Positions 42,013 to 58,348 of a stretch of 64,000 nt of DNA are shown piece after piece. The position numbers were made by a program, and so were the translations under genes. The stretch is from a virus: positions 1 through 64,000 of the IMG/VR virus record IMGVR_UViG_3300010160_000043. One strand, 5' to 3'. The notes beneath the pieces are model-generated. The model worked only from the letters and a program-made list of their open reading frames with translations, did not search any database and was not told the origin of the DNA. Position 1 is the stretch's first letter; each line of letters opens with the position of its first letter.

Positions 42013-44382
42013 ATGGATTTATTTAATCCCCCCATAGAATTTAATTACACAATAATGATAAAAGATTTAGATATCACAAGTTTTGATAATCCTTACTTAC
42101 AGATTGTATGGGAGGATTACGCTGAAAACTTTACTCAAGAAAAAATTAAGAGTGTTCGTCATTACTTTCAAAAGAAGTATAACACAACCAACGTCAATGT
42201 AATAACAAAAACAAAGGTTGCTGACGACACCACACATACCGTAGACATATCCTTTAACATCTTGGATGAGAACTATCAATTAGAGTTAGTTCGTTCATTC
42301 TTGGAGTCAAAGGGGAATATGGAACACTACGATGATATCTACCAACTTAATAGTATTGTGGATAACAAATTGTTACAAACTCAAACTGATGCTGCCCCGT
42401 TCAAGAGATGGTATATCAAGAACATTGAGTTCTCAAACTTTTTATCCTATGGTGAGAATCAGAAAATAGATTTTGAGAAGTGTGATGGGATTACGGTTGT
42501 TGAATCAAACCCACCTAACTTTGGGGGTAAGACAGTTCTTACTGTGGATTTATTGATGTTCTTATTCTTTAATGAGACAACCAAGACATCTAAAGCGGAG
42601 GAGATATTCAACAGGTTTACAGAGAGAAACAAAGTTGCTGTAAAAGGTGAGATTACAATAGATGGTGAGGAGTATATCATATTGAGAAATATTGAGAGAA
42701 AGTTATCAAAGAAAAATGAATGGACGGTTAAGACCGAGTTGGACTTTTACAAAAGATTGTCTGATGGTAGTTTGCAGAACTTCACCGGAGAACAACGAAG
42801 AGAGACCGAGGCGTTTATCAAAACATCTATCGGGACCAAAGAGGACTTCTTAATGACCATCCTAACAACTGCCACCAACTTGGAAGAACTAATTGACGCC
42901 AAACCTACGGCGAGGGGTCAAGTTCTTTCAAGGTTTATGGGGTTGGATTTCCTTAAACGTAAAGAAGAGGCCGCCAAAGAAATTTATAGTGACTTCTCCA
43001 AAGGAATGTTGTCAAACATTTATAACTCTGAAGAACTTAAAACGGATAACCAAACTAGTCAAGATACAATTGATACTCTAACGGAGAGTAATCTTACTTT
43101 AGATACTCAATTGGAAGATGCTAAAGCAAGAATCCTTAAGGGTCAGGAGTATCGTGATGGATTGTTAAAATCCAAACACAATATTGATAGAGATTTAACA
43201 TTAGTATCTCCGGATAAAGTCCAAGAGGAAATTAATGGGTTGGACCTACAGAAAGCCAAAGCCATTTCTGACAGAGATGGGGTTAAGGTTGTTGAACCAT
43301 CTGAATTTTACCACGAGGACAAACACGATGAGGTGAAACAGAAAATTAAAGATTTGATTACTAAACAAGCGGAGAACAACGCAAAGATTAAAAGTATTGA
43401 AGAACTTAAGAGTTCTGTTGATGGTGGAATCAAATGTGAACACTGTGGTATTGAACTAATGAATGCGGCGATTACCAATGCAAAAATTGGGGAACTTGCA
43501 GGATTTATCACGCACAAAGGGGAATTAGAGGGGTTAATGCAGGATTTAACCAGCAAAGAGTTAGGTTTTGTTAACCTTAAAAAAGAATTTGATGAGTATG
43601 AGAAAAACAAACTTATCAAAGAGAAATACGAATTAAGTGTTGAACGTTTCCAATTGATGATTGATGCGTTGAAAACCAAATTGGAAAGATACTCTGAGGT
43701 TCAGGATAAGATTATTGAAAACAATAAGACAGATGGATTATTGATTAAAGCGGGGATTAGAATTGATGAACTTGAGGGTGAGAAGAAAACTATTGAAACT
43801 AGTATCTCAAACAATAAGTTTACGATTACCAATCTAACAACCAAGATAACATCTAACTTGGAAACAATTAGAAAGATTGCGGAAGAAGCGGAGAGAGAAA
43901 GAATCTATAAAATCTATTTGGAAATATTCGGTAAGAATGGTGTTACCAAACTTATAATGAAGACGATGATGCCACTTATCAATAGTGAACTTCAAAGACT
44001 ATTGGAAGATAGTTGTCACTTCAGATTAGAAGTTAAGATTAACGATAAGAATGAAGTTGACTTCCTAATGATTGATAACAACACTCAGGTTGAGAAACCG
44101 ATGGCGTCCGGGTCCGGATATGAAAGGTCAATTGCTTCACTAGCGTTGAGAGCGGTATTGAGTAAAATATGTTCATTACCAAGAGCTAACGTTGTTGTGT
44201 TTGATGAGGTGTTCGGGAAGATGTCTAACGACAACTTGGAGATGGTATCAGAATTCTTTAGTAAGATTAAAGAATACTTTGAAAAGATATTTGTTATTAC
44301 ACACAACCCATTAGTAACAAATTGGGCTGATAACGTGGTAAGAATTAGAAAAGAAGAAAATATTAGTTATGTTTCCCAATAA
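42013..44382 (+). CDS. Recombination endonuclease ATPase subunit, gp46/SbcC/Rad50-like
   Basis: The 789-aa SMC-like protein has an N-terminal ATPase lobe with a P-loop near 166-176 (NPPNFGGKTVLT). Long coiled-coil arms flank a zinc hook C475-x2-C478 (KCEHCG). The C-terminal lobe carries the signature SGSGYERSIASL (about 698) and Walker B VVVFDEVFGK (about 726-735). It has an unusually long N-terminal extension of about 135 residues before the usual start (RWYIKNIEFSNFLSYG). The P-loop lacks the normal first Gly (GPNGxGKS), which is odd but keeps GKT. It works with the SbcD-like protein at 39152. Confidence 0.9.
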   Translation: MDLFNPPIEFNYTIMIKDLDITSFDNPYLQIVWEDYAENFTQEKIKSVRHYFQKKYNTTNVNVITKTKVADDTTHTVDISFNILDENYQLELVRSFLESKGNMEHYDDIYQLNSIVDNKLLQTQTDAAPFKRWYIKNIEFSNFLSYGENQKIDFEKCDGITVVESNPPNFGGKTVLTVDLLMFLFFNETTKTSKAEEIFNRFTERNKVAVKGEITIDGEEYIILRNIERKLSKKNEWTVKTELDFYKRLSDGSLQNFTGEQRRETEAFIKTSIGTKEDFLMTILTTATNLEELIDAKPTARGQVLSRFMGLDFLKRKEEAAKEIYSDFSKGMLSNIYNSEELKTDNQTSQDTIDTLTESNLTLDTQLEDAKARILKGQEYRDGLLKSKHNIDRDLTLVSPDKVQEEINGLDLQKAKAISDRDGVKVVEPSEFYHEDKHDEVKQKIKDLITKQAENNAKIKSIEELKSSVDGGIKCEHCGIELMNAAITNAKIGELAGFITHKGELEGLMQDLTSKELGFVNLKKEFDEYEKNKLIKEKYELSVERFQLMIDALKTKLERYSEVQDKIIENNKTDGLLIKAGIRIDELEGEKKTIETSISNNKFTITNLTTKITSNLETIRKIAEEAERERIYKIYLEIFGKNGVTKLIMKTMMPLINSELQRLLEDSCHFRLEVKINDKNEVDFLMIDNNTQVEKPMASGSGYERSIASLALRAVLSKICSLPRANVVVFDEVFGKMSNDNLEMVSEFFSKIKEYFEKIFVITHNPLVTNWADNVVRIRKEENISYVSQ

Positions 44383-44394
44383 AATATTATTTTT

Positions 44395-44426
44395 TTTGTT
44401 TATTGAAATAATTATGATTATATTTG
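44395..44426 (+). promoter_or_regulatory. Bacteroidota-type promoter before the methyltransferase fusion
   Basis: TTTG (44395-44398), a 20-base spacer, then TATATTTG (44419-44426). The ATG at 44431 is 4 bases after the -7 box, so the mRNA should be leaderless, as at 37142. Confidence 0.75.
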
Positions 44427-44430
44427 CATT

Positions 44431-46872
44431 ATGATAACAACAGGACAAACAATTAGTAATTTAGCCATTGCAAACAATGAAAGCGTGGTTCAACAATCAA
44501 TTATTGGATTTTTCCAATCTAAAAGTAATTTATTATTTAATAGATTCCGAGGGGATGATGGGGTTCTTTACGATGAATCACCTAAAAATAAAAAGTGGTA
44601 TGTCAGTATTTTGTTTGAATTTAAACTTGATGAAAATTTATCAAGTAATAAATCTTTGGTAAGAGCTCTTGTGCAAGCTTTAGTTTATTTACATCGAATG
44701 GATGAATCAACAGAATTGAAGACACCTAAAGTGGTTGCAATTGTAGATAAAAATGAATTTGTTTATTTTCATACAAATCAACTTCTTAGTTATTTAGCAG
44801 AAGATATTAAGTGGCCTAGTAATGCCGTTGATGCTTGGAAAGAAGTGCCATTATTATATGATTTGGTTTTAAATGACTTAAATAATAATTTATTAATACC
44901 TATATATCATACAATATCCGCAATTAATCTCCCAATAATTTATGATAGAATATTAAATTATTGTAAAAATAGTGTACAAAAAAGACCAGTAACGTCTAAT
45001 AAAATTAAAAAAGCGTTTTCATATTGGGAGGAAGATGTTCTAAAAACTAAAATGTTACCAAATGATTCAGTTAATTTATTTGTTCATTTATTTGTTAATC
45101 CAATGTGTAATGGATTAAATGTTAAAAAAAATGATGGTTCTCTGATTACAGAATCTTTTGGAAATTCTAAAATTAAAGTTAATAAAACAAATTTTGAATT
45201 ATTAATGAACGGATTTAATGTTAATAATTTTTCAAATAATGAAAAAAAGAAAATAACATCAACTCAAGATACTTTAATTCAAGATTCTGAAAGAAGAAGA
45301 TTAGGGGCATTTTATACTCAATCTGTTTGGGCTGAACAAGCGGATTTATATTATGAATCAATTTTTCCAAATTATAGAACATCAACAACTGATTTAGTAT
45401 GGGATTCAAGTGCCGGAACTGCTAATATAACTAAAGATAGAAGATACTCAAATTTAATATTATCAACTAAAGATAGAGCGGATGTTGATACTATTATTCA
45501 ATCGGGGTATAATAAAGGTGCAATTGTTGAAGAAATAGATTATTTGGAGACTAATTACGATTTATTGCCAATTAGTGTAAAAAATTTAATTGATAATGCG
45601 GAAGTAATAAATAAATTAGAAAATCCGCCATTCCTTACCTCCGCAAATTATGGGAAAACAAGTAAACCTGGTGTTTCAGACACATACATTAGAAAATTAA
45701 TGATAAAAGACGGGCTAGGTAATTCGTGCGACCAATTATTTAATCAATTCTTATATCAAAATAATAATTTATATTTAAAAACCGGTAAAAAAGTTAATAT
45801 TGGTTATTTTATGTTACCAATTTATTTCACAGGTGAGAAAACTAAAGAACTTAGAGAATTTATGGGTAGAAATTATAAATTTAAAAAAGGGTTTTTAATT
45901 AATGCTAAAGAATTTGCGGGTGTTAAATCTTGGCCATTAGTTTTTGCTATTTTTGAATGTGGAGTACCTGAGGACTCAAATACGTTTGCGTTTGATATAT
46001 TGGAAAGAGAAGGGATTGATGTTGTTAATAAGGGTGTGAAGTTGTTTTACAATACGGATAATTTAGAATCTTCAAAACCGTGGATTAAATCAAAATGGAT
46101 TGAAAAATCTGATAATGCTCAATTTGTTCCTACTATAAATGGGTATGATGTTCCTGTTCTAAATAGTAAAAATAAAGATACTGTTAAAACAAATTTTATT
46201 GGGTTTTTACATAATAACTCAAATTGTGTACAATTTAATTCTCAATATGTTGGACTTTATACAATGCCATTTGCTTCATCACACGGAGTTTCATTTAATG
46301 AAGAAGGATTTTGGGAGGCAATAATGATGTTTAATGCGAGAAAATTAATAAAAAATAATTGGTTAAATCATAAAGATGAATATTTAAAACCGGATGAAGA
46401 ACATCCAAAATATAATATTTTTAAAAAATTATCATTAATAAGATGTTTATTTTCTAATGGTTCTAATCAAACTTCGTGGATAAGTAAAATATATAATGGT
46501 GTTAATTATAGGGTTAAAAATGAATTTTTTCCATTTATGAGACAATCGCTAACTAAACATATGGAAAAACACCAAGTGATGTCACTATATGATGATTTTA
46601 ATTTATCTGAAGATAGATTTGTTGCAAAAATATTATCTGATGAAAATTTTTATGAAGGGATTCCGACTATTGCAAAAAAAATAATTGATGAGTATAGAAG
46701 AATTTATTTTGAAACAATTTTAAATTCAACTGAATATCCGTGGGATATGGGATATTCACAATTTAAAAAAATTGCGTCTGAATCTAATGTAGTATTAATT
46801 GAGAGTTTGGTTGAACAATTAGATAAAGAAATGACTCCAATGGTTTATGAACTTGGGTTTTTATTAAAATAA
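44431..46872 (+). CDS. Putative nuclease-adenine-methyltransferase fusion (type IIG/IIL-like)
   Basis: The 813-aa protein has an N-terminal part (about 20-90) with acidic residues D42/D43/D48 and then LFEFKL (E63-x-K65), an order like a PD-(D/E)XK nuclease. Residues about 288-440 look like an N6-adenine methyltransferase: LGAFYTQSVWAE, motif I VWDSSAGTAN (D325), STKDRADVDTI, and motif IV ENPPFLTS (N398-P-P-F401). The C-terminal about 350 residues could be the target-recognition part. Motif I departs from the usual DPxxGTG, so activity is uncertain. The gene is monocistronic, A/T-rich, with its own host-type leaderless promoter. It may modify phage DNA, restrict competitors, or both. An inactive derivative cannot be excluded. 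Confidence 0.7.
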   Translation: MITTGQTISNLAIANNESVVQQSIIGFFQSKSNLLFNRFRGDDGVLYDESPKNKKWYVSILFEFKLDENLSSNKSLVRALVQALVYLHRMDESTELKTPKVVAIVDKNEFVYFHTNQLLSYLAEDIKWPSNAVDAWKEVPLLYDLVLNDLNNNLLIPIYHTISAINLPIIYDRILNYCKNSVQKRPVTSNKIKKAFSYWEEDVLKTKMLPNDSVNLFVHLFVNPMCNGLNVKKNDGSLITESFGNSKIKVNKTNFELLMNGFNVNNFSNNEKKKITSTQDTLIQDSERRRLGAFYTQSVWAEQADLYYESIFPNYRTSTTDLVWDSSAGTANITKDRRYSNLILSTKDRADVDTIIQSGYNKGAIVEEIDYLETNYDLLPISVKNLIDNAEVINKLENPPFLTSANYGKTSKPGVSDTYIRKLMIKDGLGNSCDQLFNQFLYQNNNLYLKTGKKVNIGYFMLPIYFTGEKTKELREFMGRNYKFKKGFLINAKEFAGVKSWPLVFAIFECGVPEDSNTFAFDILEREGIDVVNKGVKLFYNTDNLESSKPWIKSKWIEKSDNAQFVPTINGYDVPVLNSKNKDTVKTNFIGFLHNNSNCVQFNSQYVGLYTMPFASSHGVSFNEEGFWEAIMMFNARKLIKNNWLNHKDEYLKPDEEHPKYNIFKKLSLIRCLFSNGSNQTSWISKIYNGVNYRVKNEFFPFMRQSLTKHMEKHQVMSLYDDFNLSEDRFVAKILSDENFYEGIPTIAKKIIDEYRRIYFETILNSTEYPWDMGYSQFKKIASESNVVLIESLVEQLDKEMTPMVYELGFLLK

Positions 46873-46878
46873 TTTCAC

Positions 46879-46886
46879 TATCTTTG
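46879..46886 (+). promoter_or_regulatory. Bacteroidota-type -7 box before the sigma-factor operon
   Basis: TATCTTTG (46879-46886), 31 bases before the ATG at 46918. A TTG at 46853-46855 could serve as -33 but with a long 23-base spacer, so this promoter is weaker or needs help. It would give a leader of about 25 bases. Confidence 0.65.
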
Positions 46887-46917
46887 TAACATAATATCTA
46901 ACTTAAACGTATAACGT

Positions 46918-47493
46918 ATGAATGACTTAACCAAATACATTTTATTTGTCTTTGCAAAAAACGACAACCCAAAAGAATTTACAGAACAAATCGCAGAAGA
47001 ATTATGTGTTATTTCTGACTCACCAAATCTTAATTTTTATTTCGGACCAGAATCATCTGTGTTCACAATATCAACATTAGATTCTTATCAGGATGTGAAA
47101 GACTATATTGATATGATTTTAGACGTGGGTGATATTATGTATATATTATTACCTTACACCTCTGACAATTTGTCATATGGATTACCTGAAAAAATATCTA
47201 AACATCTTTTTAATGATGGTATTAGTGACTTTATGTCAGAAAAACCAAATAATTCGTACACAGAAGAATTTGAGGTACGAAAAATGATACAAGACAAAAT
47301 CCGAGATAACTTTAACTTAAACGTTGATAATTTTGATTTTGAATATGATGAAGATGAGTGGACGGACATTGATGAAATTAAAAATAAACAACGCATACCA
47401 TCTTTAGATGAATTATTGGAAAAAATTAAAGATAAAGGTTTAAATTCACTAACAGAAAAAGAATTATCACAACTAAATAAATACTCAAATTAA
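46918..47493 (+). CDS. Unknown acidic protein with DUF6576-like C-terminal tail
   Basis: The 191-aa protein has an alpha/beta N-terminal part (about 1-110) with no catalytic motif I recognise, then an acidic linker. The C-terminal segment PSLDELLEKIKDKG ... SLTEKELSQLNKYS is very like the short C-terminal domain found on various Bacteroidota proteins such as rhomboid proteases (LDxILxKIxxxGxxSLTxxE). It is cotranscribed with the sigma factor (1-base gap) behind a host-type promoter, so a regulatory partner role is plausible but unproven. Confidence 0.62.
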   Translation: MNDLTKYILFVFAKNDNPKEFTEQIAEELCVISDSPNLNFYFGPESSVFTISTLDSYQDVKDYIDMILDVGDIMYILLPYTSDNLSYGLPEKISKHLFNDGISDFMSEKPNNSYTEEFEVRKMIQDKIRDNFNLNVDNFDFEYDEDEWTDIDEIKNKQRIPSLDELLEKIKDKGLNSLTEKELSQLNKYSN

Positions 47494-47494
47494 T

Positions 47495-48295
47495 ATGAAA
47501 GAAAAAAATTCAGGCATACCGATTAACCAAGAAGAGATTAACTTATATTTGAAAGACATTCGTAAGATTAAAGTAATGACTCCCGAAAGAGAACGTCAGT
47601 TAGCGTTACTAATGAATGGTAATGAGATTAGTGATACTAGACGAAAGGAGATTCAAAAAGAACTTCTTGAGGGGAATTTACGTTTTGTTATTACAGTTGC
47701 TAAACAATATCAAAATCAAGGATTAGATTTTCCTGATTTAATTGCCGAAGGTAACTTAGGGTTGATGAAAGCTATTAATAACTTTGATTGGTCTAAGAAT
47801 CTTAGATTTATATCTTACGCGGTATGGTGGGTTAAACAATCCATTCTTCAATCATTAAACGACAATGCTCGTACTATAAGACTACCGGTTAATGTAGTTC
47901 AGGATTTACATAGAGCCAAGAAAGCAATTGAATCTAATGGTGGTAAGTTAGAAGATAAGTTTCAAAACTTACCATCAATGATTGACTTGGATATGAATAT
48001 TAATGAGGATGGTGATACTTTAGTTGATATCATTGTTAACAATAATGCAGATATGCCCGACGAGTCATTTAATTCAGGTGATATGTTGAAGATTAAATTA
48101 TTAAGTCTATTACATATTTTAGATGAAAGAGAAAAATTGATTATTGAGGATTATTTTGGATTATCCGGAACACCAAGAACCCTTGAAGATATCGGTGGGG
48201 ATTTCAACCTCACAAAAGAACGTGTCAGGCAAATTAAAGAAAAAGCTTTACGAAAATTAAGGAATGAGAGTTCCGTATTGTTTGATTATATGTAA
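47495..48295 (+). CDS. RNA polymerase sigma factor, sigma-70 family, Bacteroidota RpoD-like
   Basis: The 266-aa protein has complete regions 2, 3 and 4. Region 2 (about 60-130) includes NLRFVITVAKQYQNQGLDFP, DLIAEGNLGLMKA and FISYAVWWVKQSILQSL. Region 4 (about 200-256) has the helix-turn-helix TLEDIGGDFNLTKERVRQIK. It strongly resembles the primary sigma factor of Bacteroidota, not T4 gp55, so it is probably host-derived. It is expected to redirect host RNA polymerase to phage promoters. It ends in a strong terminator and is cotranscribed with the gene at 46918. Confidence 0.93.
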   Translation: MKEKNSGIPINQEEINLYLKDIRKIKVMTPERERQLALLMNGNEISDTRRKEIQKELLEGNLRFVITVAKQYQNQGLDFPDLIAEGNLGLMKAINNFDWSKNLRFISYAVWWVKQSILQSLNDNARTIRLPVNVVQDLHRAKKAIESNGGKLEDKFQNLPSMIDLDMNINEDGDTLVDIIVNNNADMPDESFNSGDMLKIKLLSLLHILDEREKLIIEDYFGLSGTPRTLEDIGGDFNLTKERVRQIKEKALRKLRNESSVLFDYM

Positions 48296-57428: not shown

Positions 57429-57499
57429 TAGTTAAAAATATTTGAAAGAGAAAGTTGCTTTTTCACTTTTTATTTCTTATACTTTATAAAAAAGAAATT

Positions 57500-58348
57500 A
57501 TGGCATTATCATACATCGGGGGTAAATCTAAAATAGGTAAATGGATTGTTCCATTCATACCTAACGACATTGAAACATACGTAGAACCATTCTCAGGGAT
57601 GTTTTGGGTATTCTTTAATATGGACTTAACCAAGTACCCCAATTTAAAAGAAGTTGTTTATAACGACTTCAATCCGCTTAACTACAATTTATTTCAGTGT
57701 CTTCAGAATCCTGAGAGATTATTAGAAGAAGTGAATAATATTCCTTGTCAGCAAAGAAATGAGTTTCCGACACCGGATATCTATAAAGAACAATTCATCA
57801 GCTTCCAAGCTGAAATATTTGCCGAGAATTTCAGCGTACAACCTTACGATTACGTTGTTGCTGCAAAATACGCATATGTATTGGCTCAGGTATTTTCGGG
57901 GTCTAAACCGGAAACAAGTTCATTTATAGATTTGAAAGGGAAATATAAATCAAAGTATCTTACATTCCGAGATAAGTTATCTAAACCTGATTGGGTGGAA
58001 CACTTCTTAAAGGTTACTAAGGTGGAGAATATGGACTTTGAAGAGGTTATTCAAAAGTATGATGGTCCATCTACATATGTTTATGCTGACCCCCCATATT
58101 GGAAGACTGAGAATTATTACAACAACCACGACTTTGATAGTACGGACCACGAGAGATTGGCGGATTGTTTAAAAGGTATTCAAGGTAAGTTCTCATTATC
58201 GTATTATGATTTTCCACAATTACACACTTGGTTCCCACAACTTCAATATGTGTGGGAGAAGAAAGAATTTGCTAAGGCGGCTGCGGCTAAGAAGGGTAAA
58301 GCTCAAAATATGGGTGAAGAACTTTTAATTATGAATTATCAAAAATAA
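57500..58348 (+). CDS. DNA adenine methyltransferase, Dam/D12 class
   Basis: The 282-aa protein has the N-terminal SYIGGKSKIGKWI motif, a SAM-binding motif I (VEPFSGMFWVFFN, about 28-40), and the catalytic D197-P-P-Y200 (YADPPYW). It methylates adenine N6 in a short DNA site, which can shield phage DNA from host restriction. In motif I the usual AGSGAV is SGMFWV, a notable change in the SAM-binding loop. The start at 57500 is chosen because the conserved N-terminus begins there. The frame is open to 57455, but those residues are a hydrophobic run without conservation. Confidence 0.87.
   Translation: MALSYIGGKSKIGKWIVPFIPNDIETYVEPFSGMFWVFFNMDLTKYPNLKEVVYNDFNPLNYNLFQCLQNPERLLEEVNNIPCQQRNEFPTPDIYKEQFISFQAEIFAENFSVQPYDYVVAAKYAYVLAQVFSGSKPETSSFIDLKGKYKSKYLTFRDKLSKPDWVEHFLKVTKVENMDFEEVIQKYDGPSTYVYADPPYWKTENYYNNHDFDSTDHERLADCLKGIQGKFSLSYYDFPQLHTWFPQLQYVWEKKEFAKAAAAKKGKAQNMGEELLIMNYQK

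Follow-up and report, generated by a model that had tools for sequence, protein, structure and literature searches.

The gene at positions 44431 to 46872 of the IMG/VR virus record IMGVR_UViG_3300010160_000043, whose first 64,000 nucleotides constitute the window analysed in this study, probably encodes a restriction-modification (R-M) enzyme combining nuclease and methyltransferase in a single chain. We assign a probability of roughly 0.77 to the reading that this protein of 813 amino acids, termed P0001, is a type IIG-like enzyme that methylates the DNA of its own phage and cuts unmarked DNA, and that it belongs to a set of interchangeable R-M cassettes occupying a fixed slot. The underlying observations comprise an open reading frame (ORF) with conserved catalytic residues and a predicted fold, and, among relatives, empty and occupied sites, alternative R-M cargo and swaps of the recognition domain; that the enzyme is active, which sequence it recognizes, when it acts, on which DNA and to what benefit are points that we infer. 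In the proposed mechanism, the gene would be expressed from its own host-type promoter and P0001 would, during infection, methylate its recognition sequence on the DNA of the phage, with one recognition domain directing both methylation and cutting as in a type IIG enzyme. Unmarked DNA of the host, and above all of co-infecting relatives whose slot is empty or encodes a different specificity, would be cut, and the cleavage of such rivals could aid the spread of the cassette by recombination.

Architecture of P0001 and its protein family

The gene starts with an ATG on the plus strand and its frame is intact. Its assignment and that of its parts is as follows:

44431 to 46872, plus strand: putative type IIG-like R-M gene, 813 amino acids (ORF, family comparison, structure model)
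44431 to 44820, plus strand: predicted PD-(D/E)XK nuclease domain, residues 1–130, with E17, D43, E63-x-K65 and Q82xxxY86 (conservation, predicted fold)
44821 to 45255, plus strand: mainly helical connector, residues 131–275 (AlphaFold secondary structure)
45256 to 45960, plus strand: predicted gamma-class adenine methyltransferase core, residues 276–510, with motif X GAFYTQ 292–297, motif I D325–N332, D370 and motif IV NPPF 398–401 (conservation, model)
45631 to 46470, plus strand: hypervariable block, about residues 401–680, taken as target recognition domain (sliding identity, pairwise block swaps)
46471 to 46869, plus strand: conserved C-terminal domain, about residues 681–813, with D772-x-G-x-x-Q777 (conservation, sliding identity)

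Searched by itself, P0001 returned nothing useful from PHROGs, Pfam, PADLOC, NCBIfam, PDB and INPHARED phages, and it matched none of the anti-phage defence models in PADLOC-DB 2.0.0. A translated search of plasmids revealed full-length homologues of about 25% identity with E-values down to 1e-42 in Virgibacillus, Ligilactobacillus, Lactobacillus, Fluviibacter and others, which are either annotated as 'hypothetical protein' or carry no annotation. Search patterns derived from an alignment of these plasmid homologues gave 458 genome matches across many phyla with a single pattern (80 were kept) and 42 viral loci with two patterns, several of them on contigs of 200–412 kb. Three homologues of P0001 match the generic PADLOC model MTase_II (best 2e-7), and the family is without a name in Pfam, PHROGs, NCBIfam and PADLOC. 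In the literature searched, neither the family nor the slot described below was found. A role in plasmid maintenance, suggested by the location of several homologues near rep or par genes, was rejected since the neighbours vary between plasmids. Hypothetical proteins of the Vibrio phages D69, D181 and D148 weakly resemble the nuclease domain only (E-value 4e-5).

The motifs singled out in an initial annotation of the same DNA (E63-x-K65, FYTQ, D325, STKDRADVDTI and NPPF) all reside in the 813-residue chain, with FYTQ at 294–297, STKDRADVDTI starting from S345 and NPPF at 398–401. Their meaning is reflected in a conservation among 105 full-length members that is not due to chance, with E17 retained in 95%, D43 in 98%, E63 and K65 in 97% each, Q82 in 99%, Y86 in 98%, D325 in 97% and N398-P-P in 100%. 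In 75 N-terminal segments, phage members included, D43, E63, K65, Q82 and Y86 are invariant, and this set forms, as judged by sequence, a PD-(D/E)XK signature that includes a QxxxY of the RecB type. A corresponding core with H-E-E-E-H-E topology and the catalytic motif is present within the first 120 residues of the AlphaFold model of the whole chain, in agreement with a separate prediction of residues 1–135.

In the remainder of the conserved region, the motifs of the family follow each other in the order motif X (G-x-F-x-T-P), motif I (WDxAxGTxNL), STL, FQYDFLNDD and motif IV (NPP(Y/F)), with motifs X, I and IV conserved to at least 95%. The model of P0001 (pLDDT 90.3, pTM 0.80) contains the nuclease and a methyltransferase core, whose predicted fold is of the gamma class. 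The best whole-chain matches in the PDB are the type IIG enzyme BpuSI (5e-10) and the type IIL enzymes MmeI (9e-9) and DrdV (6e-8), behind which follow methyltransferase subunits, CamA and M.BseCI; among predicted viral structures, the top match is a siphovirus 'N-6 DNA Methylase' (E-value 8.5e-22). The initial proposal of a nuclease-methyltransferase fusion in type IIG/IIL order is thus supported by family motifs, predicted nuclease topology and structural matches, and checks for a missing PD-(D/E)XK core or a missing methyltransferase fold did not contradict it.

The region downstream of the methyltransferase motifs appears to be subject to exchange. Over 202 viral pairs, identity amounts to 82–89% in residues 276–375 and 70% up to residue 400, then falls to 25–44% in residues 401–625 and is 66–76% after residue 676. 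The pair L320 and L324 is 96–100% identical in residues 1–225, 20–56% in most of 376–682 and 92–100% after 683, and at the DNA level alignments of 91% and 85% flank a gap of about 400 nt devoid of similarity. Breaks in this variable region are likewise seen for L101/L114 and L295/L304. With matching sides surrounding a differing central block, it is presumably the target recognition domain, and with it the specificity, that has been exchanged between relatives. A single clade of phages has the gene split within this region, at residue 512/518, into two ORFs, one for the nuclease-methyltransferase part and the other for the recognition and C-terminal part. In five of the eight second ORFs, a TAnnTTTG box precedes the listed start by at most 30 nt (background 3.6% per 60 nt), and in a sixth, of L301, it lies 50 nt inside the ORF, whose listed start is probably too early. 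Between the halves of one split gene, a GIY-YIG gene is found in antisense orientation (L114:2252-3301, minus strand). At three genome loci (L025:166-4316, L044:5099-9233 and L091:926-4946), a paralogue consisting of the methyltransferase without nuclease directly follows a full-length family gene, which by analogy to R-M systems with extra methylases would support the assignment as R-M.

The slot between gp46 and the sigma factor gene

The initial annotation had described the gene as isolated between gp46 and the sigma operon with a host-type promoter of its own, and both features are recovered in the window:

42013 to 44382, plus strand: gp46/SbcC-like gene, left border of the slot (PHROG 77, 2e-39; slot analysis)
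44395 to 44426, plus strand: Bacteroidota-type promoter TTTG-N20-TATATTTG, an exact consensus match ending 4 nt before the ATG at 44431
46873 to 46917, plus strand: right slot border; leader of a gene of 191 amino acids, carrying a separate TATCTTTG box and conserved in empty sites
46918 to 47493, plus strand: gene of 191 amino acids with a DUF6576 tail, next after the slot in nearly all relatives
47495 to 48295, plus strand: sigma-70-like factor (PF04542/PF04545), right anchor of the slot (Pfam; slot analysis)

The organization of this locus was investigated in three scans with gp46 relatives, which yielded 127 distinct gp46-to-sigma intervals, 121 after dropping six distant ones. In relatives with 96–98% identical gp46, empty sites contain 65 nt from gp46 to the gene of 191 amino acids. 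The right part of the empty site, TATCTTTGTAACATAATAT...AACGT, is retained in the window immediately after the R-M gene, and the cargo has thus been inserted cleanly between gp46 and the promoter of the next gene. Cargo beyond small accessory genes is present in 71 of the 121 intervals, 51 of which hold a DNA methyltransferase from one of seven clusters, in many cases beside a partner that resembles a restriction enzyme, and all 39 intervals with a separate methyltransferase contain a further ORF. As two clusters that were not counted have methyltransferase domains in their representatives (L248 and L266), the total could increase up to 57. ORFs of methyltransferase families number 57 in 241 kb of slots compared to 2 in 1908 kb outside, a ratio that is inflated by the derivation of the models from slot cargo.

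The diversity of this cargo is pronounced. The family of P0001 fills 13 of the 127 intervals, and in its tree the slot members originate from at least two lineages, one consisting of P0001 and its relative L292, which form a long separate branch, and the other being a clade of 19 viral sequences to which the remaining slot members belong. Replacement in the slot is illustrated by L159, whose gp46 is 96% identical to that of the window while its R-M protein is only 30% identical. EcoRI together with EcoRI methylase occupies the slot of two uncultured phages (L139:5068-6746 and L306:11428-13211), with Pfam E-values for the nuclease of 5e-131 and 5e-123 and retained PDG and EAK residues; the L139 contig ends within the slot and is excluded from the 127 intervals. 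In L207, an IceA-type protein resides beside a methyltransferase, and PADLOC REase_II matches among cargo ORFs are strong in L174 and L216 (1e-10 and 4e-9) and weak in L314, L134 and L222. Such R-M-like pairs provide strong indirect support for the earlier proposal of a phage-borne defence or inter-phage exclusion module, and collectively the intervals suggest that phages of this lineage swap R-M systems at the slot like cartridges.

Other slot genes and features of the window deserve mention in their own right. A slot protein of 798 amino acids (L248:11404-13800) combines N6_Mtase and Methylase_S in one chain as another fused R-M type, and one of 1144 amino acids (L266:11425-14859) contains Helicase_C and an Eco57I methyltransferase, with an N-terminus that is GIY-YIG-like by eye. 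A pyrimidine dimer DNA glycosylase (PF03013) is a recurrent small passenger, found at L266:15298-15834 and in 15 other slots, and an IS605 OrfB/TnpB-like gene is located within the slot of L321 (11400-12578). In the window as a whole, TTTG-N20-TATATTTG occurs 15 times, a number reached in none of 100 shuffles, compared to 6.2 expected sites. The spacing of 4 nt between promoter and ATG suggests a leaderless start of the P0001 gene and the promoter type points to a Bacteroidota host, while gp46, ribonucleotide reductase and sigma genes are indicative of a virulent, T4-like lineage; the nearest INPHARED relative of its gp46 reaches only 24% identity. Outside the slot, the window encodes a second DNA methyltransferase of the D12 class at 57455-58348 on the plus strand (PF02086, 4e-27), which is possibly a Dam-like phage methylase.

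Competing explanations and the properties of P0001 and L292

Several observations weigh against the assignment of P0001 as an R-M enzyme. The FQYDFLNDD block, which is about 99% conserved elsewhere, is replaced in P0001 (EEIDYLETN) and L292 (LDFDRLSTS), and P0001 deviates further in motif X (FYTQ) and motif I (GTAN). Its methyltransferase is thus possibly altered or weak, and a live nuclease combined with a dead methyltransferase would cause self-harm. Over the full chain, type IIG enzymes align to the model with low TM-scores (0.2–0.3), a Foldseek search of the isolated nuclease domain against the PDB gave no significant match (best E-value 0.06), and no family member with demonstrated activity was found. 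The weak structural matches of the isolated domain include FokI, Cas4, AddAB and CinB, and sequence searches of this domain against Pfam and PDB returned chance-level matches plus weak ones to PDDEXK_9, PDDEXK_13 and PvuRts1I-like_N. The initial annotation had regarded motif I as abnormal, which holds insofar as it is slightly odd for the family, whereas the main departure concerns the downstream FQYDFLNDD block, which it did not mention.

At the same time, P0001 retains D370 and L372 and the intact, full-length L292 has a canonical GTGNL and NPPY. The two proteins are 55% identical, with 56% in the nuclease, 59% in the connector and 54% in the methyltransferase, and their differences at the three codon positions (0.35/0.25/0.48) fit purifying selection. 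Judged from sequence, we read the methyltransferase of P0001 as changed rather than decayed, although it constitutes the weakest point of the R-M claim for this protein. A degenerate pseudogene is ruled out by the open frame, the retained nuclease residues and the intact relative of 55% identity. Contig L092, which is 99.995% identical over 18.4 kb, is too similar for selection tests.

Among the alternatives, the one that survives best, albeit as an unlikely account, describes a selfish mobile R-M cassette that confers no benefit to the phage and persists only by spreading into relatives with an empty slot. The patchy presence, the clean empty sites, the unrelated R-M systems sharing one slot and the antisense GIY-YIG gene inside the copy of L114 would all be expected of such an element, but this account can coexist with the preferred reading, the GIY-YIG gene is confined to that one copy and most cassettes show no obvious linked mobility gene. 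Somewhat less probable still is an effector dominated by its nuclease, in which the methyltransferase of P0001 and L292 would bind DNA without methylating it and host DNA would be degraded, with some other protection of the phage DNA, for instance base modification or the activity of the D12 enzyme. The loss of FQYDFLNDD in both proteins next to an intact nuclease and their long branch in the tree are in line with this scenario, which is countered by the retention of D325, G329, N332, D370 and NPPF/NPPY, by the canonical motif I of L292 and by an identity between the two that is as high in the methyltransferase as in the nuclease. The least probable explanation, raised as an alternative in the initial annotation, is a methylase that mainly shields phage DNA from host restriction with a vestigial or regulatory nuclease domain; solitary phage methylases are generally common and this phage encodes a separate D12-class adenine methyltransferase, but P0001 has preserved no part better than the invariant nuclease residues, in contrast to its drifting methyltransferase motifs, and among the slot neighbours are genuine restriction enzymes, EcoRI for example, whose catalytic residues are retained.

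Relation to known systems

The preferred assignment of P0001 as a type IIG-like enzyme is mirrored in the type IIG/IIL proteins BpuSI, MmeI and DrdV, where nuclease, helical part, gamma-class adenine methyltransferase and recognition domain share one chain. P0001 and its family display an N-terminal nuclease fused to a methyltransferase, a D...ExK arrangement of the PD-(D/E)XK type, motifs X, I and IV, with P0001 deviating, and a separate variable recognition domain. In contrast to these enzymes, useful sequence similarity is absent in phmmer searches, with DrdV as a weak profile match only (E-value 0.015), and the family has a two-gene form in one phage clade. Type ISP enzymes (LlaBIII-like) were rejected since a helicase is expected between nuclease and methyltransferase, where P0001 has about 145 mainly helical residues that match no helicase family, and type I R-M with separate HsdR, HsdM and HsdS subunits was rejected as P0001 is a single chain, with a two-chain split confined to one phage clade.

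Chloroviruses offer a clear precedent for virus-encoded R-M, which has been linked to host DNA degradation, although their restriction enzymes were found not to be responsible in a test of virus exclusion (PMC7019647). The adjacent endonuclease and methyltransferase genes of these viruses and their several specificities among relatives resemble the slot, whereas the hosts are eukaryotic, R and M genes are separate and a single exchange slot is not described in the parts of that article considered here (PMC7019647). A fixed locus for interchangeable defence cargo, R-M included, is also known from the hotspots of P2-like phages and of P4 satellites (Rousset 2022, PMC9122126). Those elements are temperate phages or satellites, and their cargo is a mixture of defences, unlike the probably virulent gp46/sigma lineage, in whose slot R-M predominates. 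With respect to type II systems, two relatives hold close copies of the EcoRI R and M genes in this slot, and EcoRI is unrelated to P0001.

R-M is usually viewed as a bacterial defence against phages. In our study, one phage lineage has a fixed slot at which R-M systems, close EcoRI relatives among them, are loaded and exchanged, with the widespread P0001 family as one such cartridge. On a tentative note, and with odds that we place somewhat below even, uncultured virulent phages may keep a dedicated exchange slot beside gp46 for whole R-M systems of many types, be it EcoRI, IceA-type proteins, methyltransferase pairs or type IIG-like fusions whose recognition domains can be swapped. These systems would serve to destroy co-infecting relatives that differ in specificity, and recombination would carry them into the empty slots of such relatives, which would amount to an immunity of phages against other phages, with frequency-dependent specificities. 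It thereby becomes directly testable why restriction enzymes are carried by virulent phages, with the P0001 family and the slot offering many untested specificities, and our work provides a likely function for unannotated proteins that number in the hundreds and are encoded by plasmids, chromosomes and large phages.
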